A stretch of 29,902 nt of DNA from a virus: positions 1 to 29,902 of the IMG/VR virus record IMGVR_UViG_3300022929_000131; one strand, written 5' to 3'. This document shows, piece by piece, positions 11,087 through 29,902 of the stretch (its first letter is position 1; the number at the start of each line of letters is the position of its first letter). Below the pieces are notes generated by a model. It was given only the letters and a program-made list of their open reading frames with translations, was not told where the DNA came from and ran no database searches. The translations under genes were made by a program, and so were the position numbers.

Positions 11087-11191
11087 TTAAATCTTTCTTA
11101 TTTGTCGTTTCAGGTGTCTGATGACTGCCTCCATTTCCTTGATCTTTTGGTTAAGTTTTTCAAATTCTTGCTTAACTTGATCTTGGCTCAT
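11087..11191 (-). CDS. 34-residue coiled-coil peptide downstream of nrdB
   Basis: The ATG (11189-11191) overlaps the nrdB stop in a TCAT/ATGA junction, the same coupled arrangement seen throughout this operon. The peptide (MSQDQVKQEFEKLNQKIKEM, then AVIRHLKRQIRKI) has a clean heptad pattern and would form a short basic coiled coil. It is the last gene of the leftward block. Short length limits certainty. Role unknown. Confidence 0.6.
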   Translation of the reverse strand: MSQDQVKQEFEKLNQKIKEMEAVIRHLKRQIRKI

Positions 11192-17939: not shown

Positions 17940-19991
17940 TCAGACCTCCTGTTGTTCAAGCCAGTTTACACCAAGTTTAGCCTCTAATAAAAGAGGAACA
18001 TTAAAATTTATTTTAAATTTATTGTCAATGATTTCTTTTAGGTCACCATTAATTGACTCAATTACACCTATTACCTGTGCCTCTTCATCAGGATGTATGT
18101 CGATAACAATTGAGTCATGCACACTGTTCACGATACATGATTGCATATCAGCCATACGCTTTTGTATTTCAAGCAGTACTGTAGGCACAATGTCAGCGGT
18201 AGCGAATGACTGCACCGGGTAGTTCTTAATTGCTGTGAAGTTAGTCACTGTCCCATTCTTCCTGCGCTTTACATCAGGGAATGAGAACTGTCTACCGCTA
18301 GGTGTAGTGATCTTCTTGTATGTAAGAACTTCCTTGGCTAACTCCCTGTGCCATCTGGCGATACCTTTGTACTTCTCTGTGAAGTGCTCATAGTATCGTG
18401 CTTCGGCAGGTGTTCTTCCGTAGCCTGTTGCTCCGTAGAGCGGCGCAAACGTGTGTGCCTTCGCATCCTGTCTGCTAGTCTTCTGACCCGCTTCCGAAAT
18501 GACTTGTGCTGTGTATGAGTGGACATCAAAACCCTCCGCTACTTCTTTCATTGCTACTTCATCTTGTGACAGGTACGCCGCTACACGGAACTCTAGCTGA
18601 GCAAAGTCAGCCTCCATGATCTTACCTCCTGCAAATCGGGAGATGAACACCCGTTTTACAGGAAATGTACCACCACGTGGCATGTTCTGCATGTTGGGAT
18701 CACGCCCTGAGAACCTGCCAGTAGATGTCATGTGCTGAGTAAGACGTACATGCAGTTTGTTATCTCGCTTAGTGAAAGTACTAATGCCATCAACGAAACT
18801 GGATAGATATGTATCCACTGCTGAAAGCCTAGTCAGCTTAGATAAAAACGATGCGGCCTCATCCATACCCTTACCAACAGACACAGCACGTAGGTACTCT
18901 AACTTATCCTTACTGGTACTGAATCCATTTGCACTGTGCCATTTAGCAGAGGGTGCACTGAACTTCAGCCCCGCTAACTTGGGTAACTCCTTGAGTACAT
19001 AGCCCCTACCGATGCATGTGCCGCACTTAGATGACTTCTTAAAGTCACTGCCATCTTTCTTCTTCTTGAAGAATGTACCATTGCCCCTGCAGTCAGAACA
19101 CTTGTGCGCCTTGGTGCGTCGCACTGGAACACTTGACTCATTAACAAAACGTCTGAAGTCAGTAGGACTCATGTATGGATCAGCATCATTGGCCCATTGT
19201 GTTTTGTTCAATGGCTTACGTGAGTAGATCACCCATGATAACTGCTCAGGTGAGTTGAGATTGATCGGGGTATCACCCATAAGGGATAAGACAGACGCAT
19301 TTAAATCACGAATAAGTGATAATTTTTCTGCCTCAAACTCTTCGCGTACCTGCTCAAGGGCATCTGTATCCACTTCAAATCCATTTTGGTAGATACGAGC
19401 GAGAAGAACACATGTCTCCATTGTCAGGTCAGTCACAGTGTGTAGACCTCTGTTTGCATCCTCTCGCATATCAAGAGACTGCTCATAGTAAAGTGCCATA
19501 GTAGTTCTCAGATCATCGTATAGATACTCTTTAAGTTCTGCGTACGGAATCTTGTCTACTGTGTACCCGTCCTTGAGATACTTCTTCAGTGTGTCCTGCT
19601 TCTTAACTGGTAAATCCCTGCGCTCAGCGACTGCCTCAAGAGACAAGGGCTGTTTAACACCACGCTGTAAAAGGTACTCACCTAACATGGTATCCCACAC
19701 TGGGCCATTGTAAGTAAAATTAGTCTGCCAGATCCACAGTAAATCGTGTGGGGCATTGTGTGCAATCAGGAGAGTTGTCTTATCCAATATGCTTTGGATC
19801 TCTTCACAGTCCTTCTTGCGATCTTCGTACTTACAATCGTACTCTGTGTGATCAAAGGTATAATGCCTAGGCTCCTCACCTTCAACCTGTATGCCGACCA
19901 TAACTAAACTATTCTGCGGCTCATACGGATCAAGGTGTAACTTACCATCCCTTTTGATCACTGTGTTCTCAACGTCAAGAACTATTTTCAT
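17940..19991 (-). CDS. Family A DNA polymerase with 3'-5' exonuclease and DnaJ-type zinc insert
   Basis: Replicative polymerase. Proofreading domain: D6 and E8 (VLDVENT), N79/D83 (AHNAPHDLLW), Y156/D160 (YLYDD). Polymerase: DPNMQNMPR, motif A D462 (EADFAQLEFR), motif B R507-K511-F515-Y519-G520, motif C H625-D626 (SVHDSIV). The residue equivalent to E. coli Pol I F762 is Phe. Between the halves, at 298-330, lies CSDCRGNG ... CGTCIGRG, the CxxCxGxG pair of the DnaJ central zinc domain; this combination is known from HMO-2011-type marine phages. Length is 683. The C-terminal AT-rich codons (about 18000-18028) contain a promoter match. It overlaps the endonuclease VII gene upstream by 17 bases. 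Confidence 0.97.
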   Translation of the reverse strand: MKIVLDVENTVIKRDGKLHLDPYEPQNSLVMVGIQVEGEEPRHYTFDHTEYDCKYEDRKKDCEEIQSILDKTTLLIAHNAPHDLLWIWQTNFTYNGPVWDTMLGEYLLQRGVKQPLSLEAVAERRDLPVKKQDTLKKYLKDGYTVDKIPYAELKEYLYDDLRTTMALYYEQSLDMREDANRGLHTVTDLTMETCVLLARIYQNGFEVDTDALEQVREEFEAEKLSLIRDLNASVLSLMGDTPINLNSPEQLSWVIYSRKPLNKTQWANDADPYMSPTDFRRFVNESSVPVRRTKAHKCSDCRGNGTFFKKKKDGSDFKKSSKCGTCIGRGYVLKELPKLAGLKFSAPSAKWHSANGFSTSKDKLEYLRAVSVGKGMDEAASFLSKLTRLSAVDTYLSSFVDGISTFTKRDNKLHVRLTQHMTSTGRFSGRDPNMQNMPRGGTFPVKRVFISRFAGGKIMEADFAQLEFRVAAYLSQDEVAMKEVAEGFDVHSYTAQVISEAGQKTSRQDAKAHTFAPLYGATGYGRTPAEARYYEHFTEKYKGIARWHRELAKEVLTYKKITTPSGRQFSFPDVKRRKNGTVTNFTAIKNYPVQSFATADIVPTVLLEIQKRMADMQSCIVNSVHDSIVIDIHPDEEAQVIGVIESINGDLKEIIDNKFKINFNVPLLLEAKLGVNWLEQQEV
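18000..18028 (-). promoter_or_regulatory. Internal sigma70-like promoter for the ssDNA-binding protein gene
   Basis: Minus strand: TTGACA (18023-18028), a 17-base all A/T spacer, TTTAAT (18000-18005). Both boxes are near-consensus at ideal spacing. It lies within the last codons of the polymerase gene, and the predicted start (about 17993) is some 55 bases before the ssDNA-binding protein ATG. The surrounding codons are much more A/T-rich than the rest of the gene. Confidence 0.6.
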
Positions 19992-20400
19992 TCTTGTGCC
20001 TCTCTAAATATTCGACAGCCCGTTTTATCCTGTCGATGTTATCTTTAAATGCGCCTAAGCCAGAATTACAATGATGGCATACCCATCCCCGGAATGTTTC
20101 AGTTTCATGGCAGTGGTCTAAGACCCACTTCTGTAATTTTGTTTGTCTAGACATGGATATCTCATCCATATGTCTATCGCAAATAGGGCACTCATAGTCT
20201 TCGTCGGGGTAATCATACTGAGATCTTAGTGTACTTACCAATGCAGAATGATTTCTACGACATGTATTGCACATCCTTTTGATCTCTCCAGATGGCATTA
20301 TTTGGAACTGGCTTGATGGCTGAGCGAAGCCGCACTTATTACAAGTGATGGCATCCTCTCCGCAATACTCCTCCGTGAACCCAAACATGTCTTCCTGCAT
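19975..20400 (-). CDS. Endonuclease VII-like HNH/His-Me nuclease with extra zinc ribbon
   Basis: Residues 70-121 match the recombination endonuclease VII family: zinc ligands C71, C74, C108 and C111, the D95-H96-C97-H98 catalytic segment (VLDHCHETETFRGWVC), and N112 in HCNSGLG. In T4 this enzyme resolves Holliday junctions and branched DNA before packaging. An added N-terminal zinc ribbon (C20, C23, C44, C47) is typical of HNH enzymes that recognise specific DNA, so a homing-type or other nuclease role is possible. I choose ATG 20400, four bases after the helicase stop with GAGG upstream, over the in-frame TTG at 20424. It overlaps the polymerase start by 17 bases. Confidence 0.9.
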   Translation of the reverse strand: MQEDMFGFTEEYCGEDAITCNKCGFAQPSSQFQIMPSGEIKRMCNTCRRNHSALVSTLRSQYDYPDEDYECPICDRHMDEISMSRQTKLQKWVLDHCHETETFRGWVCHHCNSGLGAFKDNIDRIKRAVEYLERHKNENSS

Positions 20401-20404
20401 ACGG

Positions 20405-21616
20405 TCATACCTCGTATCGCCCAATATAATAATTCAGGTTACATGTAATACGCCCATGCCACCCAGTTAATTTATTCTTTGCGACATTGATGTGTCGGGT
20501 AAACCCATCATCTTCAACACCCTCAACAGGTGCATCTTTAGCTACAAGTAGCATCAGGTCAGCCTCACTGGCCTTGCCTGTCTTACTACCCTCCATCATA
20601 GACTGGTTAAGATTAGTACGCCCCTCTGCCTCAGCACTTAGCTGTGACATGTAGAAGATTGCACAGTTATATTCCTTGGCTATCTGTCTAGCGTGGATAG
20701 CACAGAGCTTGAGTCCTTCATGTGATTGATCCTGAGCGAACTTGTCACCCATATCTAACACGACGATGTCAGGCTTGTACGACTTACATACTTGCTCTAC
20801 CCAATTCATGTTCTGCCCAGTAGACTCTTTGAGCTTGATGTTTGCACTTAGCTTGTTCCAACGAGCATGTGCCTCACGGGGATTCTTCCTGATCTCCTTC
20901 ATGGTCATACCAGTTACCGCTGTCAGGTAACGTGTACCGACACGGTGATAGGCTTCCTCGTTACAGAGCACAACACACTTGGCACCCTGTGATGCAAAGC
21001 CATTAGGTCCTGCGATTATTGATGCGTGGAAGGATGTCTTCCCTGTGTTAGGGCGAGCACCACCTACGACTAAGTGTCCTGCATTCACACCCTCAACATG
21101 CTGTGCAAGTGTAGGTAAGTTAAACTTCCATCGTGCCTCTTCATCATCCTTCTCAAGTAATGTCTCAAGAGAGATGTCTTCCCATTCAATGTTTAGGTCA
21201 GGTAAAAAGTCATCACGATGGTTGTCAAGTATCCTACGCAGTGGCTCTAAAGTTACGTCTTCATTGTTTACGTAATCAAAAGACAGGTTGTACAATTGTG
21301 CACCCACATCTTTCTGGAACAGCATAGACAGAATCTCATTGGCTACATCCGCACCAATAGGATCTACATGCTTCATTTTATTAAAGTACGATTTGTATAC
21401 GTCTTCTTGGGCAGTGGTCAGTCCTTTCTCACTAGCTAAGAACAATCCCTCGATCTCACTCACTGTTAAGTCACGCTTGTACTTATCCATTGCATGATCA
21501 ATCAGTGTCTTGATCTTGCCCATGTCCTTGCTGAATAAACGATGTGGGCATCTGTCACCCTTGTACTCATCGTAGAACTTCTTATTCAGTAGGCTCTTCA
21601 GTAGTGCCAGTTCCAT
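20405..21616 (-). CDS. Replicative DNA helicase, DnaB/gp4-type RecA fold
   Basis: Unwinds the fork ahead of the polymerase. Walker A is GGARPNTGKTSF (185-196, K193), the likely catalytic Glu is E220/E221 (LCNEEAY), Walker B is DIVVLDMGD (D288), and the sensor Gln is Q325 (YMSQLSAEAEG). The 403 residues include an N-terminal helical region (about 1-140) in place of the primase found in T7 gp4; the primase is a separate gene nearby. The start at ATG 21616 has a strong GGAGGAG nine bases upstream. An in-frame upstream start (21652) lies within the preceding small gene. Confidence 0.93.
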   Translation of the reverse strand: MELALLKSLLNKKFYDEYKGDRCPHRLFSKDMGKIKTLIDHAMDKYKRDLTVSEIEGLFLASEKGLTTAQEDVYKSYFNKMKHVDPIGADVANEILSMLFQKDVGAQLYNLSFDYVNNEDVTLEPLRRILDNHRDDFLPDLNIEWEDISLETLLEKDDEEARWKFNLPTLAQHVEGVNAGHLVVGGARPNTGKTSFHASIIAGPNGFASQGAKCVVLCNEEAYHRVGTRYLTAVTGMTMKEIRKNPREAHARWNKLSANIKLKESTGQNMNWVEQVCKSYKPDIVVLDMGDKFAQDQSHEGLKLCAIHARQIAKEYNCAIFYMSQLSAEAEGRTNLNQSMMEGSKTGKASEADLMLLVAKDAPVEGVEDDGFTRHINVAKNKLTGWHGRITCNLNYYIGRYEV

Positions 21617-21785
21617 TCTTATCTCCTCCAAATATCTTGTCCCAGTTATCACGGTATGCGTCAGAATTTTTTACACGTGTCCTAGAACCTTTCCCACCTT
21701 CCCATGAACCACCCTTGGGTTTGTCACGGTTCTTTATCCAATCCTGATTACGATCATTCATGGAGTCACGCCAGTGCTTAGTCAT
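21582..21785 (-). CDS. Small basic hydrophilic protein, 67 aa
   Basis: Preceded by AAGGAGAGTG before ATG 21785, and overlapping the helicase start by 35 bases. The product is rich in Lys, Arg, Asp, Asn and Gly (DKPKGGSWEGGKGSRTRVKN) with few hydrophobics, probably unstructured alone; it could bind nucleic acid or a replication partner. A sequence similar to the 19-bp dyad (15 of 19 matches) lies within it at 21658-21676. No family recognised. Confidence 0.65.
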   Translation of the reverse strand: MTKHWRDSMNDRNQDWIKNRDKPKGGSWEGGKGSRTRVKNSDAYRDNWDKIFGGDKNGTGTTEEPTE

Positions 21786-21796
21786 TACACTCTCCT

Positions 21797-22078
21797 TTAA
21801 TACCAGCCCATTGCACGACCGAAGCCGAACACGTTAATGCACACGAAGTACGATGTCAATAACAATACCCATGCCGCACCTCTACGGTAGCTAGCATACA
21901 CTTGTGCAATCACACCTACAAAAGAAACTGGGTACACCACCCTCATGTCAGGCGCACTCGCATTGATTGCTAGGTACATGCTTGCCGCTACTGTGAACAC
22001 GAAGCCTACCAGTTCAAGCCAGAAGGCTTTGCGATCACTTCTGTAACTGGTTACCCAGAACTCACTGATTTTGTTCAT
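21797..22078 (-). CDS. Three-span membrane protein, 93 aa
   Basis: ATG at 22078 overlaps the preceding stop (ATGA). After a short N-terminal amphipathic part (FWVTSYRSDRKAFWLEL), three hydrophobic segments occur at about 22-40, 46-62 and 69-87, separated by short basic turns (SYRRGA). A membrane protein inside a replication operon is unusual. Small phage membrane proteins of this type may alter host transport or superinfection (inference). No signature residue of a known transporter is certain. Confidence 0.75.
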   Translation of the reverse strand: MNKISEFWVTSYRSDRKAFWLELVGFVFTVAASMYLAINASAPDMRVVYPVSFVGVIAQVYASYRRGAAWVLLLTSYFVCINVFGFGRAMGWY

Positions 22079-22356
22079 TCCTGTGGATCACTGCCGGGGT
22101 ACACATACTCAGGTACGTTGTACTTCTTTATCGCTTCTTCTAGATCGTAGTAGTACACAGCGGCAGGCACAGGCTTGCCCTGCTTAGGTGCGAGGTCATC
22201 AGCCATCGACTTCCATTTGGAATACCCAAAGGTGTCATCCGCCATGTCAGCTTCGTTCGCAAGGAACAAAGCCCACAAGTAAGCGCACTCACCAGTTAAT
22301 CCAATGCCATCACCCTGCCACAACAATGGCCTCTCAACGTAGGGTACTTTACTCAT
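22075..22356 (-). CDS. Hypothetical protein, 93 aa
   Basis: Start chosen at ATG 22356, overlapping the upstream stop; a further in-frame ATG at 22371 lies inside that gene. The protein has many aromatics and prolines (VPYVERPLLWQGDGIGL, AVYYYDLEEAIKKYNVPEYVYPG) and a helix ECAYLWALFLANEADMA. No recognised motif. It ends in an ATGA overlap with the membrane protein gene, so the two are probably co-translated. Confidence 0.65.
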   Translation of the reverse strand: MSKVPYVERPLLWQGDGIGLTGECAYLWALFLANEADMADDTFGYSKWKSMADDLAPKQGKPVPAAVYYYDLEEAIKKYNVPEYVYPGSDPQE

Positions 22357-22661
22357 GATGCTTTCTTCCATGGCTTCGTGATCATCCAGTGACCGAATGG
22401 CACAGAGCCTTGCCAGTCACGCTCAAATGGTGTCATCCCCTTCGGGACAGCACTTTTAGTTCCCCTCCTGAGAAGGGATTGATTCCTTGGGGCTAAGTCA
22501 AACTGCTTACGCAATTTACCTAGCTTAGTTTTAACAGCGTCCCCTGTCTTACCAATCTCAATACCAATTTCATGGTTGGTCTTGTGTTCTTTGTACATCT
22601 TGACCGTTGTCTCGATCTCTTCCTGAGTCCAAGGAACATTGTAACCGCCTCGCCTATGCAT
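22353..22661 (-). CDS. Myb/SANT-like helix-turn-helix DNA-binding protein, 102 aa
   Basis: Residues about 10-52 (PWTQEEIETTVKMYKEHKTN, then HEIGIEIGKTGDAVKTKLGKL) follow the pattern of a three-helix HTH: W and acidic residues in helix 1, a short turn, I-x-x-IG-K in helix 2, and A-V-K-x-K-L in the recognition helix. Comparable domains occur in Myb/SANT-like and GcrA-like proteins. The basic C-terminal half may add DNA contacts. It is the clearest DNA-binding regulator candidate in the window. The GGAG-preceded ATG lies inside the primase stop (8-base overlap). Confidence 0.7.
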   Translation of the reverse strand: MHRRGGYNVPWTQEEIETTVKMYKEHKTNHEIGIEIGKTGDAVKTKLGKLRKQFDLAPRNQSLLRRGTKSAVPKGMTPFERDWQGSVPFGHWMITKPWKKAS

Positions 22662-23445
22662 ATAACATCTCCGCTAATTTATCTAAGTCTTCAGTTCGTT
22701 TGTACTTTAAGTCATCACTCAGGTTCAATGCCCTGCAGTTTAACTCCCTTGCAATCTTGATTGTCTTGTCTCGTGCGTCAGGATCTAATGCAACAATCAA
22801 TTTGTCAAACCATTTATTAATGTAGGTACGATGGAAGTCCGTTAGTTGTGTACCTAACAATGCGATGCCCACTACTTCTCTCTCTTTCCATTCCCCAATG
22901 ACATAAGCACTGATTGCATCCTCAACTATGACTGCTACATCGCCTGCCCCATGAACATAAGGCATTGGGGATGATGCGTAGCGTAGCCACTTGGGTGTTC
23001 TGCCTGTCATTGACCTACCTACTGCGTCTACAAGTACATTGTTCTCAGTGTACACAGGGAAAACCACACGATCCTGTCTGATATCGTACATAACATCATT
23101 GTGTTTGATGCCATAGCGATCTAAAAACATAGGATCTATGGGGTTTTGTACCTCTGTGTATGGGGTAAGGTAGGGAGGAAGCTCATAGGTACATAGATCC
23201 TGCTCAGAATGGCTCTCAGAGCTACGTTTTTGTAGCCTTTGCAATTCCATGATAGTACTCGCATCTATGAACTTATGCTGTGTGCCCCTGATGCCACAAC
23301 TATTCTTGTAACAGTTGTACAGAACAGTAGTGTAGTCCCGTGTCACAGTAAAAGTGTTCTTACCATAACAAACAGGACAGTCACATCTGTGTGTTGCATC
23401 GACAGGTAAGTCTAATGAGTCGATAAAATCACTTAATTTAGACAT
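22654..23445 (-). CDS. DNA primase, T7 gp4 N-terminal type (zinc finger plus TOPRIM)
   Basis: Makes RNA primers for lagging-strand synthesis. Zinc-binding Cys are at C23-x2-C26 (CPVCYGKN) and C45/C50 (YNCYKNSCGIRG). The TOPRIM region has E175 (AVIVEDAIS), a G-T-Q segment (ALLGTQLTD) and D221-x-D223 (VALDPDARD). The length of 263 matches the primase half of T7 gp4; the helicase half is a separate gene downstream. ATG 23445 has GGGAGA upstream, and one copy of the 19-bp dyad ends 19 bases before it. Confidence 0.93.
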   Translation of the reverse strand: MSKLSDFIDSLDLPVDATHRCDCPVCYGKNTFTVTRDYTTVLYNCYKNSCGIRGTQHKFIDASTIMELQRLQKRSSESHSEQDLCTYELPPYLTPYTEVQNPIDPMFLDRYGIKHNDVMYDIRQDRVVFPVYTENNVLVDAVGRSMTGRTPKWLRYASSPMPYVHGAGDVAVIVEDAISAYVIGEWKEREVVGIALLGTQLTDFHRTYINKWFDKLIVALDPDARDKTIKIARELNCRALNLSDDLKYKRTEDLDKLAEMLYA

Positions 23446-23463
23446 ATACAGTCTCCCATAAAC

Positions 23464-23482
23464 GTGTAAAACATTTTTACAG
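23464..23482. promoter_or_regulatory. 19-bp dyad, copy 1 (before primase)
   Basis: Plus strand GTGTAAAACATTTTTACAG. The seven-base central arms TGTAAAA/TTTTACA are perfectly palindromic. It lies in the short integrase-primase gap, 19 bases before the primase ATG. Confidence 0.6.
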
Positions 23483-23484
23483 CC

Positions 23485-24408
23485 TTACCTACTAGATGTA
23501 TCACCTGCCATGTGAACAGAGCGGAGCGTACACGCATTTGTAGCACCCGTCAAGGTATTTTTCATGTAAGGTGTTACTGATTGTGGTGACTGGTGACCCG
23601 TGACCTGCATGATCTGGGCAATACCCACGCCTGCCTCAACCATTTCTGTAGTCGCTGTGCGTCTAAGGTCAGCCAGTCGTAGTTCTGGGTTAATCCCAGC
23701 CTCAATGATAACTTTCTTTGCGACACGTGAGACTACCTCCAGTCCATAGGGTGCATACCCATTGTCAGTCCTAGCATTGACGTTAGGTGCAACATACGGT
23801 TGCCAGTCAAATGCCCCATTTTGTTGCCTCAGTATGTCCATCAGGTCATCTGAGATAGGTAGATGCACAACTGCCCTGCGCTTAGACTGCTCTAAGTGTA
23901 AGACATTGTTTTCAAAGTCAATTTTATCCCAAGTAAGCATACGCATGTCACCGATACGCTGTGCCCACTCATACGCCATGTGTGCAATCAACCCAATGCC
24001 ACGGGTATTGAACTTACTATACGCTGTATCTAAGAATTTCTTGACATCATCGGGTTGCCACATCACTTTTCGTGGCTTAGGTGTCTCCATCTGGATACTA
24101 GACCAAGGGTTACCATCTACATGGCCGTACTTCTTGCCAAAGTTGTACATCTTGCGTACGACAGACACGATACGGTTAGCAAATGTGATACCCCGGTCAG
24201 ATATGATGTCGTAGATCTCCTGTGCTTGTGGTGTGGTCACATCATTGTATCTAAGATTGCGTATTGCCTTGCCATTCCACTTAGTTTCACAGAAAACACG
24301 CATCCAGTAACGATACTGATCCTGCGAGGCAGTCACACGATTAAAATCTCGTGAGTTTAGGTACGCATCCACTAAGGATTCCATAAGTACACCATTAATT
24401 TCGTTCAT
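23485..24408 (-). CDS. int: Tyrosine recombinase/integrase, 307 aa
   Basis: Catalyses site-specific integration and excision. Visible catalytic residues are R151 (EWAQRIGDMR), a Lys in the QSKRR turn (about 176), R249 (ADLRRTATT), H272 (VTGHQSPQS) and the nucleophile Y281, nine residues after H272. The first His of the usual HxxR box is Ala here (A246-D-L-R249), a variant I associate with a group of phage integrases. The N-terminal 110 residues form the SAM-like arm. Start ATG 24408 has AAAGGA upstream. No tRNA-like att core was found beside it. Confidence 0.93.
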   Translation of the reverse strand: MNEINGVLMESLVDAYLNSRDFNRVTASQDQYRYWMRVFCETKWNGKAIRNLRYNDVTTPQAQEIYDIISDRGITFANRIVSVVRKMYNFGKKYGHVDGNPWSSIQMETPKPRKVMWQPDDVKKFLDTAYSKFNTRGIGLIAHMAYEWAQRIGDMRMLTWDKIDFENNVLHLEQSKRRAVVHLPISDDLMDILRQQNGAFDWQPYVAPNVNARTDNGYAPYGLEVVSRVAKKVIIEAGINPELRLADLRRTATTEMVEAGVGIAQIMQVTGHQSPQSVTPYMKNTLTGATNACTLRSVHMAGDTSSR

Positions 24409-24595
24409 ATTTCATTGTCCTTTCAAGATTGAGTAGGGCAGAGCGAATGCTACTACCCATACCCATGTAGTCCTCAGTTGAAGCTACCCATGACCGACCA
24501 ACCCAACGCACAGATACCTTATGGTTGTGCATGAAGTTGATCAGCGATGTGTCGCTACGCTTATGCTCATCCGCCATGTCATGTAGATCACTCAT
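24395..24595 (-). CDS. Hypothetical protein upstream of integrase, 66 aa
   Basis: I start it at ATG 24595, which overlaps the preceding gene's stop by 8 bases; longer in-frame starts lie inside that gene. The product (SDLHDMADEHKRSDTSLINF, then HNHKVSVRWVGRSWVAS) ends in a basic helix and overlaps the integrase start by 14 bases. It is His-rich near the N-terminus. Possible excisionase by position and size, but no winged-helix signature is clear. Confidence 0.6.
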   Translation of the reverse strand: MSDLHDMADEHKRSDTSLINFMHNHKVSVRWVGRSWVASTEDYMGMGSSIRSALLNLERTMKYERN

Positions 24596-24794
24596 ACTGC
24601 ATGCACTCTGAGATTGTGTTATGCCCAATGATATTAGCGGCCTCATTGAGACGCGCATTGGTAAACTCACGTTGCTTATCCTTCTGCTCAAAACGCTCAG
24701 CAACTAGACTTGCAACCCATTCGTATGACTCTTTGCTGTCACCGATATTCTTTACAAACTCAACGATCTCATCGTCACTGTAATACTTAGCCAT
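24588..24794 (-). CDS. Hypothetical acidic protein, 68 aa
   Basis: ATG 24794 with GAGGAAAT upstream, immediately after a terminator-like hairpin. The protein is charged and helical (YYSDDEIVEFVKNIGDSKES, VAERFEQKDKQREFTNARL) with one Cys near the end. It is coupled to the next gene by overlap. No family recognised. Confidence 0.65.
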   Translation of the reverse strand: MAKYYSDDEIVEFVKNIGDSKESYEWVASLVAERFEQKDKQREFTNARLNEAANIIGHNTISECMQYE

Positions 24795-24818
24795 GTTTAT
24801 TTCCTCTGATGTAAGTAA

Positions 24819-24845
24819 AGTGGCCTAGGACAATCCCAGACCACT
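24819..24845 (-). terminator. Hairpin terminator after the DUF932 gene
   Basis: A 12-base-pair stem including two G-T pairs, with ATTG loop, is followed on the minus strand by TTTACTTA. It lies nine bases beyond the DUF932 stop and before the next leftward gene, so that gene would be expressed mostly as its own unit. Confidence 0.65.
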
Positions 24846-24853
24846 CATTTAAG

Positions 24854-25762
24854 TTAAGCCGCGAGGCCAACCAGTTGCTTGAACTCAGGCAGATCAACGA
24901 CAGCCTGTGCTTTTTGTTCAATGATGGCTTGCTTCCGTGCCATGTTCGTACCCTCACGGCCAGTAACGTGTGTACCGATGTGAGTGATGACATTGAACAA
25001 GCGGTAGCCTGTGTCGCCAAGGTTGTTGTACATATTCCAGATGCGAGCACCTTCCTCGACAGACTTCTGATTGATCTTGATACCAGATGCAATGCGATAG
25101 GTAGCTACATTCTCACGAATGAACTCCATAGCACGATCCTTGGACAATGGTGTTGCCATCATGTTTTTGTACAACTCAGCCTCAGCCTCAAGGCGAGCAG
25201 GGAAGTCAGCCACGATACGGCCTAGCTTCTCTGGATCAGCAGACTGTGTGTTCTTAGCTGACACCTCTAGCTTCTCAGCGATAGACGCTTGCCCATTGCT
25301 ACACCAGTAGCGGAACAGGCCACACTGGATGTGATGCTTGAACGTCATGTCATGTGAAGCGTAGATACGGAAACGCATTGAGTGTACGTCACCCACAGCA
25401 GGCTCAAACTCATACTGCTTGAAGATGATGTCAGCCGAATACGAACCACCATCCGGTGCGATAAGGAACTTGATCTTGATCTGTGATGTATCCAGACCAG
25501 ACAACTCGATACCCTCACGCATGGAATCCCACATGATGAAGTACGGGTTAGCCACATGGTTATTACCTACAACCTGCATGACCTCGCCCTTGGGCAGACC
25601 AGTCAGTGGATCAATGTCACCAATGGTAGGGTTGATGATTGCGAACTTATCCTTCACAAGCAGGCCATTGTGACGCAAAGGCTCACGCTTAGGCTCAAAC
25701 ACCAGTGATGGTGCTACTTCAGAAAGTGGAAGGATTCCGTTACAGTCTTGATATACGCTCAT
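24854..25762 (-). CDS. DUF932 family phage/plasmid protein, 302 aa
   Basis: The overall pattern (long N-terminal strand region, then SMRFRIYASHDMTFKHHIQC, GLFRYWCSNGQ, and a helical C-terminus) fits the DUF932 family, where a C-x-NG motif after a beta-rich core is conserved. Members occur in phages and plasmids and are linked to recombination or replication only by association. I choose ATG 25762 over the in-frame TTG at 25777 because GGAG is well placed for it. It has its own strong promoter (25804-25832) and a terminator after it, suggesting early, abundant, independent expression. Confidence 0.75.
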   Translation of the reverse strand: MSVYQDCNGILPLSEVAPSLVFEPKREPLRHNGLLVKDKFAIINPTIGDIDPLTGLPKGEVMQVVGNNHVANPYFIMWDSMREGIELSGLDTSQIKIKFLIAPDGGSYSADIIFKQYEFEPAVGDVHSMRFRIYASHDMTFKHHIQCGLFRYWCSNGQASIAEKLEVSAKNTQSADPEKLGRIVADFPARLEAEAELYKNMMATPLSKDRAMEFIRENVATYRIASGIKINQKSVEEGARIWNMYNNLGDTGYRLFNVITHIGTHVTGREGTNMARKQAIIEQKAQAVVDLPEFKQLVGLAA

Positions 25763-25803
25763 AATGTATTGCTCCAATAGCTAATGATAATATTGTGTTT
25801 ACA

Positions 25804-25832
25804 ATTTTAGTGAATAAAAAAATACCTGTCAA
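25804..25832 (-). promoter_or_regulatory. Strong sigma70-like promoter for the DUF932 gene
   Basis: Minus strand: perfect TTGACA (25827-25832), 17-base A/T-rich spacer, TAAAAT (25804-25809, five of six). The predicted start is about 35 bases before the ATG. It is the closest match to host consensus in the window. Confidence 0.75.
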
Positions 25833-26047
25833 CTAATTCTTTTGACGTTCATATAATTCCGATGCTTACCATCGAGACTATACAAAGCGAGTGCTATCTT
25901 ACGCATGGCTGTGTCCAGTGCCTTGCTAGCCTCATCGAGATCCTCACTCTCGTAATCGCCAGTGTTCTGCACGTCACTCCACACACTGAACGTAGCGTCC
26001 AGTGCTTTCTCTAGCCCTTTCATTAACTCTCTATTGATTGTCGTCAT
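25829..26047 (-). CDS. Small helical protein, 72 aa
   Basis: Start at ATG 26047 with GAGGAGAG upstream; a longer in-frame start lies within the preceding gene. The protein is helical with alternating acidic and hydrophobic residues (NRELMKGLEKALDATFSVWS, ASKALDTAMRKIALALYSLD) and a basic end. No recognised family. It ends at the DUF932 promoter. Confidence 0.65.
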   Translation of the reverse strand: MTTINRELMKGLEKALDATFSVWSDVQNTGDYESEDLDEASKALDTAMRKIALALYSLDGKHRNYMNVKRIS

Positions 26048-26198
26048 TGTTTCTCTCCTCTTGTGCTTTGTTCCACATATCCATGACATCCTTCGGTACA
26101 TGGACGACACAGAAGTCTTCAAACTCATGCTGTACGTCCATCACCTCAAGCACGTCAAACGCTAGCTCAAGCATCTCAAGATCGGTTGGCTTACTCAT
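26031..26198 (-). CDS. Small acidic protein, 55 aa
   Basis: ATG 26198 overlaps the upstream stop by 8 bases, and its TAG (26031-26033) overlaps the next gene by 17, a coupled chain. The product (MSKPTDLEMLELAFDVLEVM, then a helical acidic end) has one Cys and no membrane segment. Without it a gap of about 140 bases would remain in a tightly packed operon. Function unknown. Confidence 0.65.
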   Translation of the reverse strand: MSKPTDLEMLELAFDVLEVMDVQHEFEDFCVVHVPKDVMDMWNKAQEERNNDDNQ

Positions 26199-26430
26199 CG
26201 TCATTCACCCTTACGGAAATAATCCGTCCTCTTTTTTCTGTGTCTGCTTCACTCGCATCCTCATCAATTACGGAATCATAATTGCCATTCTCAATTTGCT
26301 GTATTGCATCCACCATACTTTCGGCTTCAACAGTGAAAGTTTTCAGGACAACTACTTCCTGCACAACAACGAATTCCTTCGGTTCTTGTTCCTCATAGTA
26401 GTCCGCCATGTATTTACTTTTGTATTCCAT
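26191..26430 (-). CDS. Small acidic protein, 79 aa
   Basis: ATG 26430 with AAGGAGAG upstream. A strand-rich centre (EFVVVQEVVVLKTFTVEAES) is followed by a helix (MVDAIQQIENG) and an acidic then basic end. This resembles short beta-alpha phage proteins whose fold is often compared to DNA mimics because of the clustered acids (inference). It is preceded by a 19-bp dyad. Confidence 0.7.
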   Translation of the reverse strand: MEYKSKYMADYYEEQEPKEFVVVQEVVVLKTFTVEAESMVDAIQQIENGNYDSVIDEDASEADTEKRGRIISVRVNDDE

Positions 26431-26459
26431 AGTTACTCTCCTTCATTTAGAAATGGGAT

Positions 26460-26478
26460 GCGTAAAAAATTATTACAC
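26460..26478. promoter_or_regulatory. 19-bp dyad, copy 2 (reverse orientation)
   Basis: Plus strand GCGTAAAAAATTATTACAC, the reverse orientation relative to the other copies. It lies 30 bases before ATG 26430, between two small genes. Seven of nine base pairs around the centre are complementary. Confidence 0.7.
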
Positions 26479-26491
26479 ACCCCGTCATTAA

Positions 26492-26773
26492 TTAGAACTT
26501 AAATGCCTGCTGTCCAGACATCTCAAACTTCGACTTGTCACTCGCAATGTAAGTGCAGTCCCCCTTGGCATTCACAAAGAACGTCATCACATAGTGACGC
26601 TTGTATGCCGGTACAAAGATGCGACAGGAGATTGAGTCATCACTGACCCCCTCAATCGCAGTCACTTTGAAGTTTGCTTTGATCATGTCACCGACACGAC
26701 CCTTCCACTCAGCAGTGAAGAAACGGCCTTTGCTGTTCATCAACTGCATCTTTAATAGATCAACTCTTTTCAT
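26492..26773 (-). CDS. Hypothetical basic protein, 93 aa
   Basis: ATG 26773 has AAGGAAAT upstream. The protein is basic and strand-rich (SKGRFFTAEWKGRVGDM, CRIFVPAYKRHYVMTFFV) with two Cys, and looks like a small beta-barrel. No family recognised. It ends just before dyad copy 2, so it may close a transcription unit. Confidence 0.7.
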   Translation of the reverse strand: MKRVDLLKMQLMNSKGRFFTAEWKGRVGDMIKANFKVTAIEGVSDDSISCRIFVPAYKRHYVMTFFVNAKGDCTYIASDKSKFEMSGQQAFKF

Positions 26774-26803
26774 AGTTCATTTCCTTACATTAGTTCAACG
26801 TCA

Positions 26804-26887
26804 TTACTCTGTGTCTTGACGCAACCATCTGATCAACGACTCAATAGATGCCAACACCAAGTGTCCACATACAAGGACACCTAGCAT
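26804..26887 (-). CDS. 27-residue membrane peptide (tentative)
   Basis: A frame from ATG 26885-26887 to TAA 26804-26806 encodes a hydrophobic peptide (MLGVLVCGHLVLASIESL) with a charged end. The frame is open for six more codons back to the upstream gene's stop, but no standard start exists there. It occupies an otherwise empty 135-base gap. Ribosome binding is unclear, so this may be chance. Confidence 0.35.
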   Translation of the reverse strand: MLGVLVCGHLVLASIESLIRWLRQDTE

Positions 26888-26908
26888 CAGCGCGACATAA
26901 AATATAAA

Positions 26909-27139
26909 TTACTCCTCTTCTTTCACTGCAAACAACTGGCCGAATGAATGCATCACCACACGATACGCAGGGCGTATCTCATCTGGCAAATCATCATTCT
27001 CCTCCATCATCACCATGTTCTCCAAGGCGATGAGCATATCCGGGGTATCTGTATCGTGACCATCCACAGTCTTAAATACCCAACCATTCTTTACTGCGTA
27101 CGGCTCAACGATAGCCATCGCTTCTTTAAAGTCACTCAC
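26909..27139 (-). CDS. Small acidic protein, 76 aa, GTG start
   Basis: Begins with GTG overlapping the upstream TGA (GTGA), with GGAGGG seven bases upstream. The product has a folded-looking start (EAMAIVEPYAVKNGWVFKTV), an acidic middle and the C-terminus FGQLFAVKEEE. No recognised family. It is coupled to the YodL-like gene. Confidence 0.65.
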   Translation of the reverse strand: MSDFKEAMAIVEPYAVKNGWVFKTVDGHDTDTPDMLIALENMVMMEENDDLPDEIRPAYRVVMHSFGQLFAVKEEE

Positions 27140-27495
27140 ACTACCCTCCTCAACTTGCCTATAAAATCAAACCCCATTGGATTCACGATAAAGTAATCAT
27201 CCAACTCCACATCACGGATGATGTCACCGACACTCACTGTGTGCATCCGATCAAGACGCTCGATCACCTTCTCATCACCCATACCTGACGCTTCATATAC
27301 GCCCTCCAGTGACGATACATTGAACTTAGCCACGGCACGGTACCCATTCTTCTCAAACAATTCCTGAGCGAGTTGCTTGGTGTACTCATATGGTGAGTCA
27401 GAATACTGCACACCACGGTACATGAATGGACTGGTAGATTTCTCTTCCATCAAACGCTCTGCCACCTCAAACGGTAGCTGATAAACTTCATACAT
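27136..27495 (-). CDS. YodL-like phage/plasmid protein, 119 aa (tentative family)
   Basis: The C-terminal part (HTVSVGDIIRDVELDDYFIV, then NPMGFDFIG) has the SVGD-I ... Y-V-x-x-GF pattern found in YodL-like domains of phage and plasmid proteins of unknown function. The N-terminal half contains tyrosine-rich turns (FMYRGVQYSDSPYEYTKQL). AGGAG precedes ATG 27495, and a 19-bp dyad ends 15 bases upstream. Terminator 27541-27558 separates it from the preceding gene, so it is probably the first gene of a small unit. Confidence 0.7.
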   Translation of the reverse strand: MYEVYQLPFEVAERLMEEKSTSPFMYRGVQYSDSPYEYTKQLAQELFEKNGYRAVAKFNVSSLEGVYEASGMGDEKVIERLDRMHTVSVGDIIRDVELDDYFIVNPMGFDFIGKLRRVV

Positions 27496-27509
27496 ATTTA
27501 TTCTCCTAT

Positions 27510-27528
27510 GTGTAATAAATTTTTACGC
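27510..27528. promoter_or_regulatory. 19-bp dyad, copy 3 (consensus)
   Basis: Plus strand GTGTAATAAATTTTTACGC. It lies between a terminator and the RBS of the YodL-like gene, 15 bases before the ATG. Confidence 0.75.
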
Positions 27529-27540
27529 CGCATTAAAAAA

Positions 27541-27558
27541 GCCCCACCGAAGTGGGGC
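27541..27558 (-). terminator. Intrinsic terminator after the 71-aa gene
   Basis: Minus strand GCCCCAC-TTCG-GTGGGGC is a seven-base-pair stem with UUCG loop followed by six T (plus 27535-27540). It is nearly the same sequence as the terminator before nrdB at 12183-12198. Confidence 0.9.
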
Positions 27559-27571
27559 AATGAGGGAACTG

Positions 27572-27787
27572 TTACATCCAAGAGATGTATTCAGATTCAC
27601 ACATGATCCACTCAACACCTGTCGCCTTAGTCAGGCGATTACGCGCATCAATGGCATCAATCTTGGCGAGCTTATTGTACTTAGGAAAGTACTCTAACCT
27701 CTCACCAGACAACTTGGCAATCTGATACGCTTTCTTGCGCTCAGCACCAGACTGTGTGTTAGGCGATAGTGAATAATGTATAGACAT
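27572..27787 (-). CDS. Small basic protein, 71 aa
   Basis: ATG 27787 is preceded by AAGGAGGTC, a near-perfect ribosome site. The protein is basic at the start (NTQSGAERKKAYQIAKLSGE), helical in the middle (KIDAIDARNRLTKATGV) and ends in aromatics with one Cys. It stands alone between the promoter/dyad module at 27804-27895 and the terminator at 27541, a single-gene unit. Function unknown; such isolated early genes often target host proteins (inference). Confidence 0.75.
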   Translation of the reverse strand: MSIHYSLSPNTQSGAERKKAYQIAKLSGERLEYFPKYNKLAKIDAIDARNRLTKATGVEWIMCESEYISWM

Positions 27788-27803
27788 GATGACCTCCTTA
27801 GGT

Positions 27804-27822
27804 CTGTAATAAATTTTTACAC
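27804..27822. promoter_or_regulatory. 19-bp dyad, copy 4
   Basis: Plus strand CTGTAATAAATTTTTACAC; the central 15 bases match the consensus exactly. It lies 17 bases before ATG 27787 and about 30 bases downstream of the predicted start of the promoter at 27859-27887. Confidence 0.75.
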
Positions 27823-27826
27823 ATCA

Positions 27827-27851
27827 CTGAGAAATCGGGGTGATCTCTCAG
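27827..27851 (-). other. Leader inverted repeat between promoter and dyad
   Basis: CTGAGA and TCTCAG arms enclose 13 bases and would fold at the very start of the leftward transcript. An equivalent but different hairpin lies at 29327-29344 in the sister module. Confidence 0.5.
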
Positions 27852-27858
27852 CCTGTAT

Positions 27859-27887
27859 AGTATCTCACACTATTGACCACTTGTCAA
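27859..27887 (-). promoter_or_regulatory. Early promoter in duplicated module, copy A
   Basis: Minus strand TTGACA (27882-27887), 17-base spacer, GATACT (27859-27864). The -35 lies within the palindrome CACTTG-T-CAAGTG. The 33 bases 27863-27895 match 29363-29395 with one difference. Confidence 0.75.
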
Positions 27888-27895
27888 GTGACACT
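27863..27895. repeat. 33-bp direct repeat, copy A
   Basis: Identical to 29363-29395 except for one C/T change. It holds the -35 box and spacer of the promoter and the palindrome CACTTGTCAAGTG. Confidence 0.9.
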
Positions 27896-28265
27896 AAAAG
27901 TCACCCAAGTTGATACGCATTCTGCGTTCCTCTGCCGCCCTATCAAAGGTGTTAGGATCTACACGCTGTACATACTCCAACTTGAACTCACGGTACTCCA
28001 CATCATGTTCATTACTCATGTCCCACTTAGCCTCCCACTCACGCATGGGTATGCACTCAGAGGGAAACTCTTTCCATCCGATATTGTTACACATACAGAT
28101 GGACGCAACGAATGCCATAGCATCTTGGCGACTGTCCAACCCAGACACGATATAGTCTGTGCCTGACTTGAACTTCCAATAACTTTGATCATCCGCAAAT
28201 TTACCTGTGCCACCATGTGCGCCATAGTTTTCCAGACCCTGTGTTGTTACATAAAATTCAGCCAT
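27894..28265 (-). CDS. Hypothetical protein, 123 aa
   Basis: ATG 28265 overlaps the upstream stop (TAATG). The N-terminal half is Gly-rich and strand-forming (FYVTTQGLENYGAHGGTGKF, YIVSGLDSRQDAMAFV), the middle has Cys pairs (ICMCNN, SECIP), and the end is charged. No recognised motif. It closes a two-gene unit that ends at the promoter repeat. Confidence 0.7.
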   Translation of the reverse strand: MAEFYVTTQGLENYGAHGGTGKFADDQSYWKFKSGTDYIVSGLDSRQDAMAFVASICMCNNIGWKEFPSECIPMREWEAKWDMSNEHDVEYREFKLEYVQRVDPNTFDRAAEERRMRINLGDF

Positions 28266-28537
28266 TAGCTGATCTCCTCATCTAAATTTCTGGGCGCACT
28301 GCTTGGCTCATGAAACAGAACCTCAGTGCGAATGTTTTTGACGTCCGCATAAATTGTGTACACGACACGACCACGCTTAGCCCCAAACTCTTTAACAAGC
28401 ACATCCCAAGCAGGGCGCGACGCTTTTCTGTTCTCCCGAATCTTCAAGAGGGCATTGGGATCGGACGAATATTTTTGAACGAACTCACACGCCATGTGAC
28501 TCAGATTCTCATGCAAAAAAGTTATGTTACCAAACAC
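28265..28537 (-). CDS. Hypothetical protein, 90 aa, GTG start
   Basis: Begins with GTG at 28537, eight bases after AGGAG; an out-of-frame ATG within that space is too close to the RBS. The first half is helical, the centre basic (KIRENRKASRPAWDVLVKEF, GAKRGRVVYTIYADVK), and the end is acidic. A 19-bp dyad ends 16 bases upstream. Coupled to the next gene by TAATG. Function unknown. Confidence 0.65.
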   Translation of the reverse strand: MFGNITFLHENLSHMACEFVQKYSSDPNALLKIRENRKASRPAWDVLVKEFGAKRGRVVYTIYADVKNIRTEVLFHEPSSAPRNLDEEIS

Positions 28538-28552
28538 GATTCATTCTCCTAT

Positions 28553-28571
28553 GTGTAAAATATTTTTACGC
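28553..28571. promoter_or_regulatory. 19-bp dyad, copy 5 (most symmetrical)
   Basis: Plus strand GTGTAAAATATTTTTACGC. Six consecutive inner base pairs are complementary (GTAAAA/TTTTAC). It overlaps the end of the Gp88-like gene and precedes the GTG-start gene. Confidence 0.7.
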
Positions 28572-29276
28572 TACTGCAATCAGATCAGGATTGTCGATGA
28601 CAAACCCAGACGTATCATTCTTTGCATCACCCTTCGGTTTGAGTGCCACAATCGTGTTGCGTGTCTGCACATTAATCAAATCAGACTCATCACCATCAAT
28701 GACAGGCCGTCCCAAGAATGTTTTAGGGAATCCCCCACGAAACACCACAGCAATCGGACGATCAGTCTTGAGCGCAACTTGCACCTGCTTTTGATACTCA
28801 GGCACAGACGAATAGCTGAACATCAGATTGTAGTTCGCGGGAGTGCGAGTCAAGCGGAATGGTTGCTTGGTGTAATCAATGAACTCACAATCGGCAAACT
28901 CCCCCACCATATCAATGCGTTTCTCCCATAGCACATCAGACATTGTATTCAGACGGAACACAGCTTTGACACCCTGCTTGGCACACAGCTTTTGAAAGTT
29001 GCGCATCTCAAGCAATAGCTGATCCATGAACCCTGCATTGTCCGCATGAAACCACGCAGACTTCGCATCGCGTGATTCATTGACAGACGGGAATACTTTC
29101 GCCATGCCGGACGTATCGAGACACACATCACGGCATTTGGCTAGTCCACTTGCAGGACAAAGAACCTCATCTGGACGCAGAGTCAGTGACGCATAACGGA
29201 CAGTCATACCTGCGAGCTTAGTCTTAGCTGACTTCCTAACCTTGGTGTTGCCACCACTTTTATCTAACAATTTCAT
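28566..29276 (-). CDS. Gp88-like phage protein with conserved Cys cluster, 236 aa
   Basis: The sequence follows the Gene product 88 family as I recall it: CPASGLAKCRDVCLDTSGM (C40, C48, C52), VFRLNTMSDVLWE (107-118), FIDYTKQP, TPANYNLMFSYS, AVVFRGG, GRPVIDGDESD (189-199), and an end with DTSGFVID. Family members occur in diverse phages and plasmids with no proven activity. The three Cys plus the alternating strand/helix pattern could suit a metal or Fe-S site in a barrel fold (inference). ATG 29276 lies 20 bases after a dyad and is driven by promoter copy B. Confidence 0.75.
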   Translation of the reverse strand: MKLLDKSGGNTKVRKSAKTKLAGMTVRYASLTLRPDEVLCPASGLAKCRDVCLDTSGMAKVFPSVNESRDAKSAWFHADNAGFMDQLLLEMRNFQKLCAKQGVKAVFRLNTMSDVLWEKRIDMVGEFADCEFIDYTKQPFRLTRTPANYNLMFSYSSVPEYQKQVQVALKTDRPIAVVFRGGFPKTFLGRPVIDGDESDLINVQTRNTIVALKPKGDAKNDTSGFVIDNPDLIAVA

Positions 29277-29295
29277 ATCAACATCTCCATTTGAT

Positions 29296-29314
29296 GTGTA
29301 ATAAATTTTTACGC
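29296..29314. promoter_or_regulatory. 19-bp dyad, copy 6 (consensus)
   Basis: Plus strand GTGTAATAAATTTTTACGC, identical to copies 3 and 7. It lies between promoter copy B and the Gp88-like gene. Confidence 0.75.
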
Positions 29315-29326
29315 CTCACTGGCTGA

Positions 29327-29344
29327 GAAGTGAACAGACACTTC
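29327..29344 (-). other. Leader hairpin between promoter copy B and dyad
   Basis: GAAGTG-AACAGA-CACTTC forms a six-base-pair stem near the predicted 5' end of the leftward transcript, followed by TTCTCAG and AGTGA words shared with the sister module. Confidence 0.5.
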
Positions 29345-29358
29345 CCAACCATGCAACC

Positions 29359-29387
29359 ATTGTCTCACACTATTGATCACTTGTCAA
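29359..29387 (-). promoter_or_regulatory. Early promoter in duplicated module, copy B
   Basis: Minus strand TTGACA (29382-29387), 17-base spacer, GACAAT (29359-29364). Register is identical to copy A. It drives the Gp88-like gene through a leader of about 75 bases containing a hairpin and a dyad. Confidence 0.75.
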
Positions 29388-29395
29388 GTGACACT
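29363..29395. repeat. 33-bp direct repeat, copy B
   Basis: Partner of 27863-27895, one mismatch in 33. It overlaps the stop region of the membrane protein gene, so the repeat is conserved despite coding overlap. Confidence 0.9.
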
Positions 29396-29622
29396 TCTAC
29401 ACACTTCCAGACCTCAATCCGTGTGAACACGAACAGAGAACAGAAACTAAACACGAACCCGATGAAGGGAACGATCCAATCAAACACACTGTGCCACACT
29501 GACAGGTTCTCAGGACGGGTAAACGCAAGCGATAACCCAACCACGAACACGAACAGACCAAGCAACACAAAGAACCCAAACAGCACACGCAATGCGAGCG
29601 CACCAAAGCTAAACTTCCACAT
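29377..29622 (-). CDS. Small membrane protein, 81 aa
   Basis: ATG 29622 has AAAGGTG upstream. Two hydrophobic segments (about 8-34 with LLGLFVFVVGLSL, and 48-67 with FIGFVFSFCSLFVF) are joined by a short polar loop. An overlapping frame of similar size lacks such order. It is expressed with the 71-residue gene ahead of it. Possible roles are host membrane modification or superinfection exclusion (inference). Its last codons overlap the promoter copy B repeat. Confidence 0.7.
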   Translation of the reverse strand: MWKFSFGALALRVLFGFFVLLGLFVFVVGLSLAFTRPENLSVWHSVFDWIVPFIGFVFSFCSLFVFTRIEVWKCVEVSLDK

Positions 29623-29623
29623 A

Positions 29624-29839
29624 TCAAGACACCTTTACAATCAAACCATCCTTAATGACCACACTCGCAAAAAACTCACGCTTGTGACCAGTAAGGTACG
29701 GACGGTTGGAACCATAGACAGTCGCGTTGGAATAATCCTTCGCACCAAAAATATCGGCAGACGGATCGCTATACATTAACGGCTGACCGATACACTCTTT
29801 GAGATTTTTCTTTGATGGATAATCTAGAATTAATGACAT
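29624..29839 (-). CDS. Hypothetical protein, 71 aa
   Basis: ATG 29839 with GGAGTG upstream and a consensus dyad 16 bases before it. The product has turns rich in Asp, Ser, Tyr and Asn (GQPLMYSDPSADIFGAKDY, GSNRPYLTGHK) and a strand-rich end (FASVVIKDGLIVKVS). One Cys. No recognised family. First complete gene at the right edge. Confidence 0.7.
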   Translation of the reverse strand: MSLILDYPSKKNLKECIGQPLMYSDPSADIFGAKDYSNATVYGSNRPYLTGHKREFFASVVIKDGLIVKVS

Positions 29840-29854
29840 TTTTCACACTCCTAT

Positions 29855-29873
29855 GTGTAATAAATTTTTACGC
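29855..29873. promoter_or_regulatory. 19-bp dyad, copy 7 (consensus)
   Basis: Plus strand GTGTAATAAATTTTTACGC, identical to copies 3 and 6, 16 bases before ATG 29839. The remaining 29 bases to the window edge hold nothing assignable. Confidence 0.75.
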
Positions 29874-29902
29874 ATTACGATTTTGCGCTCAGGCACTCAG
29901 GC

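Follow-up and report, generated by a model that had tools for sequence, protein, structure and literature searches.

Dispersed dyads as candidate operators of an early-region regulator in HMO-2011-type podoviruses

The C1 repressor of phage P1 acts at many scattered operators, which are asymmetric and mostly overlap promoters. The repressor of phage phiC31 is reported to bind conserved inverted repeats (CIRs; Ingham et al. 1994), palindromes that lie in early intergenic gaps, and to autoregulate the repressor gene; we know of no description, for that system, of operator and regulator being swapped among close relatives. The sites of the mycobacteriophage L5 are 13 bp long, asymmetric and bound by a monomer (PMC9283540), and among the cluster A mycobacteriophages relatives with different repressors have "stoperators" of different sequence (PMC6550527). 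The main papers on the HMO-2011-type podoviruses mention no promoter, palindrome or repressor in their open-licence text. Here we analyse a 29.9-kb piece of such a genome (IMG/VR record IMGVR_UViG_3300022929_000131, positions 1 to 29,902; "the window" below), in which seven copies of a palindromic element, or dyad, precede leftward genes. Comparative data support a dyad family that is real, conserved and specific to the early region, and whose sequence follows that of the first early gene ("gene 1") across the HMO-2011-type phages; the best reading is that a phage-encoded dimeric regulator would bind the dyads.

The window phage belongs to the HMO-2011-type group; it shares 62% identity with Puniceispirillum phage HMO-2011 in the DNA polymerase, across 100% of the length, and its replication genes are collinear with those of the HMO-2011 type (HMO-2011-like DNA polymerase, primase and helicase order, in a bidirectional genome). 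An earlier note, made from the letters of the window alone, had described seven copies of a 19-bp near-palindrome before leftward start codons, and all seven are present there. The three copies that it gave as identical over 19 bp (27510, 29296 and 29855) are so; the reversed copy at 26460 has one mismatch to the same string, those at 27804 and 28553 have two each, and that at 23464 has four, yet agrees with the dyad. The proposed spacing of 15 to 30 bases to the start codon was measured as 14–29 nt in all seven sites. Chance does not yield equal numbers: a relaxed form of the dyad occurs seven times in the window, against a mean of 0.02 and a maximum of 1 in 200 order-2 shuffles, and for the 19-bp string with up to three mismatches the shuffles give an expectation of 0.00. 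The length of 19 bp did not survive, as the element is a 23-bp dyad, ATGYGTAAA-n5-TTTACRCAT (consensus ATGCGTAAAAATTTTTTACACAT, half-site ATGYGTAAA, from 21 copies in the window and two of the three relatives found with the same dyad, which are G1, IMGVR 3300030060_001275, 52.7 kb; G2, 3300007345_000381; and G8, 3300025759_006756).

From the right, site 1 (29855–29873, minus strand, sense GCGTAAAAATTTATTACAC) lies 15 nt before the open reading frame (ORF) at 29624–29839 and has its G2 equivalent at 761. Site 2 (29296–29314, minus; G2, 1320) is 19 nt before ORF 28566–29276, of the GP88 family, and site 3 (28553–28571, minus; G2, 2093) lies over the stop codon of that same ORF, 15 nt before ORF 28265–28537. 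Site 4 (27804–27822, minus, sense GTGTAAAAATTTATTACAG) is 16 nt before ORF 27572–27787. Site 5 (27510–27528, minus; equivalents at G2 2762 and G8 161) is 14 nt before ORF 27136–27495, and immediately upstream of it is a rho-independent terminator (GCCCCACTTCGGTGGGGC and a T-run, 27535–27558, minus), with a similar hairpin in G1 and G2. The reversed site 6 (26460–26478, plus) is 29 nt before ORF 26191–26430 and is kept in reversed form in G2 (3813). The diverged site 7 (23464–23482, minus, sense CTGTAAAAATGTTTTACAC) lies 18 nt before the primase gene (22654–23445); G1 and G2 have no copy at the equivalent position, and the sequence of site 7 is identical in contig L010. The suggestion that either orientation is tolerated thus holds for the copy at 26460, but most copies share one common asymmetric orientation. 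A degenerate eighth copy that had been proposed at 21658–21676 (minus) does exist, as a reversed match with three mismatches, but since it lies within ORF 21582–21785 and has no counterpart in the relatives it is probably not a member of the array.

All eight dyad copies of G1 are on one strand and within 19977–26469 of its 52681 bases (6.5 kb), with the late genes on one side and the integrase on the other. One of them, a near-perfect copy, stands directly 5' of a transfer RNA gene, tRNA-Cys (gca); this stretch, G1 from 23789 onwards, corresponds to 5521–5651 of contig L011. The window's dyad is absent from related phages that carry other dyads, similarly placed and in 4–10 copies each, found by a search for repeated dyads in which shuffled controls gave at most four copies. 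These are GGTCTSGGAATTCCGAGACC in G3 (eight copies), AGTCCGACAGCGGACT in HMO-2011 (five) and GTCCAACGTTGGAC in CRP-1 and CRP-345 (four), and, among 26 additional loci collected by a primase search, the HMO-2011 type in L057 (five), TGTAACGGCGTTACA in L080 (seven), GTCCAATGTTGGAC in L114 and L130 (seven and five), ATTTACTGGTAAAT in L125 (five) and GTAATCACTGATTAC in L127 (eight or nine). The dyads are 14–23 bp long in every lineage examined, and when four of the patterns were compared across four whole contigs each had 5–10 copies in its own contig and none in the three others. The Sinorhizobium phage phiM6 was considered as a laboratory model and set aside, having no convincing dyad family, and the GC-rich contig L041, with one G3-like palindrome, was dropped as an unrelated virus.

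Gene 1 encodes a protein of about 190–275 amino acids and has sites on both sides in G1, G3, HMO-2011, L057 and L127. Its protein groups coincide with the dyad types, several of the assignments being based on one or two genomes. Family A (HMO-2011, L057, CRP-1, CRP-345, L114 and L130) has GTCC-N6-GGAC throughout, and the G1 and G2 proteins, which are 72% identical, both go with the window's dyad; the gene-1 proteins of G3, L080, L125 and L127 differ, L080 and L125 sharing only a weak 71-residue match. The primases of G2 and G3 are 95% identical and their gene 1 and dyad are different, while those of G1 and G2 are only 62% identical and gene 1 and dyad are common to both; on these comparisons the dyad follows gene 1 and not the genome backbone, and the two behave as an exchangeable pair that would control the early genes. 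Relatives without the motif at equivalent genes had been named beforehand as evidence against an operator. Taken literally such relatives exist, but a different dyad stands there, linked to a different gene 1, and this replacement strengthens the operator reading. The idea of an operator-like site for a dimer acting over the accessory/early region is supported, and of a phage- or host-encoded binder the phage-encoded one is the most likely. The small helix-turn-helix protein of the window (22353–22661, minus, a phrog_323 match), which had been put forward for this role, finds no support as the binder and was rejected, as it is 85% identical in G3 despite the completely different dyad there. 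Profile–profile comparison (hhalign) linked HMO-2011 gp74 to CRP gp01 (E 1.2e-5) and gave no link from these to the gene-1 proteins of G1 or G3, so we do not claim common ancestry of all gene-1 groups. The window contig ends about 30 bases past the last site, and by synteny with G2 its own gene 1 should lie just outside, beyond the right edge; in family B, to which the window's dyad belongs, synteny and analogy suggest gene 1 as the binder. The contig breaks in direct repeats, TGCCTGAG(T), which lie between gene 1's terminator and the next site (window 29885–29902, L017 721–750, L011 2743–2770).

The strongest evidence for gene 1 as the putative binder comes from family A, as covariation between its half-site and one face of a putative helix. 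Eighty contigs were fetched by similarity to the family A gene-1 protein alone; some are near-copies and a few (L114 = L136, L130 = L161) had already been used to define the family, and 44 proteins are left below 90% identity. All 80 carry GTCC-N6-GGAC, with 2–8 sites each and 392 in total. Any other spacer length between 0 and 12 gives 0 to 12 copies, and the 256 half-sites taken at this spacing have a median of 17.5; the asymmetric centre points with transcription by 147 to 24. The half-site is GTCCAA or GTCCGA, and the two classes are split in 47 of 47 proteins by residues 110, 114 and 117 (L114/L136 numbering), which are spaced i, i+4, i+7 within SLTALQAAMRKA. K114 combined with anything but T at residue 110 accompanies GTCCGA in 10 of 10 proteins and is found in none of the 37 others. 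This rule was derived on the same protein set, so that the perfect score is descriptive and its recurrence carries the weight: on a gene-1 tree built without these three columns the half-site class switches about eight times, five of them on strongly supported branches, with the helix face changing each time. An operator copy also lies inside family A gene 1 itself, at residue 143 (L136 numbering), where the codons for SNVG or SDVG follow the operator type; because that column is an operator site, its N/D tracking is not independent.

Where the sites stand relative to promoters bears on what the regulator might do. A strong sigma70-like early promoter, TTGACA-17-GACAAT (29359–29387, minus), has its -35 in the dyad TCACTTGACAAGTGA, and a second copy, TTGACA...TACTAT, is at 27857–27887 (minus); both are consensus matches only. 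The centres of sites 2 and 4 lie at about +46 and +36, respectively, of strong predicted promoters. Across families B–F a dyad is centred at +36 to +64, mostly +36 to +48, in 11 of 40 strong promoters where 1.2 are expected, and over the promoter itself in only one (the 40 are from the window, G1, G2, L080, L125 and L127, plus four of G3, none of which fits). The remaining sites are intergenic with no promoter nearby, or past a terminator. A position downstream of the promoter is that of a roadblock and not of an occluding repressor, which makes "stoperator"-like repression our best guess. The copies would form one operator set, a 23-bp dyad in the window, for a dimeric regulator encoded by gene 1; bound dimers would punctuate the early region, in the window's type mostly in intergenic gaps and about 36 to 48 nt into the transcripts of strong early promoters (+36 to +48), and would most likely stop RNA polymerase, so that early genes would be silent when the gene-1 product is abundant, as in a prophage, in a superinfecting phage or at the end of the early phase. 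As a whole we consider this explanation, in which the dyads are operators for a gene-1 dimer that roadblocks early transcription, the best one and a likely one; for the window phage itself we infer the binding by gene 1, the block of elongation and the role in lysogeny or immunity.

Some further features of these promoters were seen. The early promoter is repeated (AGTGTCACTTGACAAGTRGTCAATAGTGTGAGA, window 29359–29391 and 27857–27891, minus, with copies in G1 and G2 too), and the dyad of its own that encloses its -35, CACTTGACAAGTG, is possibly a second operator. At 2655–2760 of L017 no gene separates a promoter from the terminator about 50 nt after it, at a place where the window has a gene; the locus may encode a small RNA or be a vacant gene slot. 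Peaks in an earlier histogram of loose promoter scores in family A were discarded as probably an artefact of TTGGAC inside the dyad.

The same sites could be read in other ways. The gene-1 protein might bind the dyads and yet activate or restart early/middle transcription, as site centres upstream of strong promoters at -74 and -55 in G3 and -68 in L127 would suggest; in G1 and HMO-2011, too, the likely promoter of gene 1 has the first site upstream of it. In families B, D, E and F, however, sites linked to a promoter are mostly at +36 to +64, which is unexpected for an activator, and others lie directly 5' of ribosome-binding sites or within genes, and we think activation unlikely. An RNA element, that is, a hairpin by the ribosome-binding site that controls translation or messenger RNA stability through binding of the gene-1 product or through nuclease cleavage, would account for dyads 14–29 nt before start codons, for the strong sense-strand hairpins of G3 (-12.1 kcal/mol) and of the reversed window copy (-12.6), and for the copy that precedes a tRNA gene in G1. 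It seems to us distinctly improbable, given that the majority of copies of the window's type form weak hairpins (-1.6 to -4.8 kcal/mol), in which a C-A mismatch is conserved on the sense strand, that ATTTACTGGTAAAT of L125 is almost without a loop, and that sites upstream of promoters and inside genes (the SNVG/SDVG codons of family A gene 1) have no ribosome-binding site.

Promoters of a T7-like single-subunit phage RNA polymerase are a very remote alternative. The sense strand CACATAGGAG is similar to their start region, and site 5 is confined to the roughly 35 bp left between a terminator and a gene; but promoters of this kind would not be expected to show dyad symmetry, the dyad copies do not have a conserved ATAGGAG downstream, and the ORF list of the G1 early/replication region has no unassigned ORF of polymerase size (no polymerase profile was run). 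Hosts do differ within the group (SAR116, Roseobacter), and dyads that vary between phages as hosts vary could in principle be bound by a host regulator; with a matching site in 80 of 80 contigs picked by a phage protein alone, one half-site base that tracks residues of that phage protein, and GTCC-N6-GGAC in both CRP-1 and HMO-2011, which have different host bacteria, we find this scarcely credible.

Roadblocking by a gene-1 dimer has its own difficulties. Gene 1 of the window phage is not in the record and is known from relatives only, family B gene 1 comprising two sequences, that of G1 and a partial one of G2. Searches of Pfam, PHROGs and the PDB gave no significant match for gene 1, and no DNA-binding fold was identified in it; the AlphaFold models for G1 and G3 are poor (predicted local distance difference test, pLDDT, 41 and 44), too low in confidence to suit a fold search. 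A sign test on the five strict pairs of half-site switches gives p = 0.0625, the minimum attainable. The promoters are consensus matches, family A lacks the +40 rule (4 of 118 promoters, 2.7 expected) as do the G3 promoters, and a few sites are upstream of promoters, where those of an activator would be. The same search found no dyad family in the cultured CRP-2, CRP-603, CRP-207, CRP-3, CRP-212 and HTVC033P, which means that not every member of the HMO-2011-type group has the system, and bacterial genome contigs yielded no prophage that carries gene 1.

The window has a tyrosine integrase gene (phrog_1; 23485–24408, minus), which suggests a temperate lineage, and many HMO-2011-type members carry an integrase. 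In 34 of 40 loci an integrase is found no more than 7 kb from gene 1, a linkage that tilts toward lysogeny over an early/middle switch and suggests a temperate role. Integration has been shown for CRP-3 of this group (PMC6918029), itself without a dyad family in our search. The primase matches among bacterial genome contigs were to contigs of metagenome-assembled genomes (MAGs) that resemble mis-binned phage; L216–L219, HMO-2011-type contigs of 55 and 63 kb in the MAG bins Flavobacteriales TMED123 and Neomarinimicrobiota MED589, are probably bin contamination. Elsewhere in the window, 11188–12150 and 13081–14853 encode ribonucleotide reductase as separate large and small subunit genes, unlike the B12-dependent enzyme annotated in the CRP-1 and CRP-2 records.

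More tentatively, and at slightly less than even odds, the gene-1 proteins may be immunity-type regulators of an undescribed kind, in several apparently unrelated families, acting at dispersed dyads that lie past the promoters; between close relatives the regulator would change along with its array of operators, by a switch of the helix face or by replacement of the whole gene, giving heteroimmune types on a shared genome. A specific candidate regulator is available together with its putative operators and with residues that appear to govern specificity, which could make it possible to sort the phages of this abundant and mostly uncultured marine group into immunity groups by sequence. The phages also offer a natural regulator–operator series, with at least six protein groups and one specificity switch that recurs about eight times, useful for studying how DNA recognition changes without loss of an array of 4–10 sites.

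Among described systems, P1 C1 shares with this one a single repressor at many dispersed operators, but those are asymmetric and mostly overlap promoters, whereas the dyads are found in intergenic gaps or past the promoter. As with the cluster A stoperators (L5, Bxb1; gp71-type), there are many sites for one regulator in short intergenic gaps, most of them outside promoters, they are mostly in one orientation (mixed but mainly one in the window), and, as described for the stoperators (PMC6550527), the site changes between relatives along with the regulator, here the candidate gene 1. They differ from the 13-bp asymmetric monomer sites of L5 in being dyads of 14–23 bp, and from its 20–30 sites over the genome in numbering 4–10 per genome, in the early region only; unlike L5 gp71, gene 1 has no detected similarity to any described repressor. 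The dyad system would then work like the cluster A stoperators minus two features that define those, namely a repressor of their family and an asymmetric site bound by a monomer. The phiC31 CIRs involve another protein, sequence, host and genome type, but they too are palindromic copies in early-region gaps, and the sites here flank gene 1; in anatomy they seem closer to the present dyads than the stoperators do.

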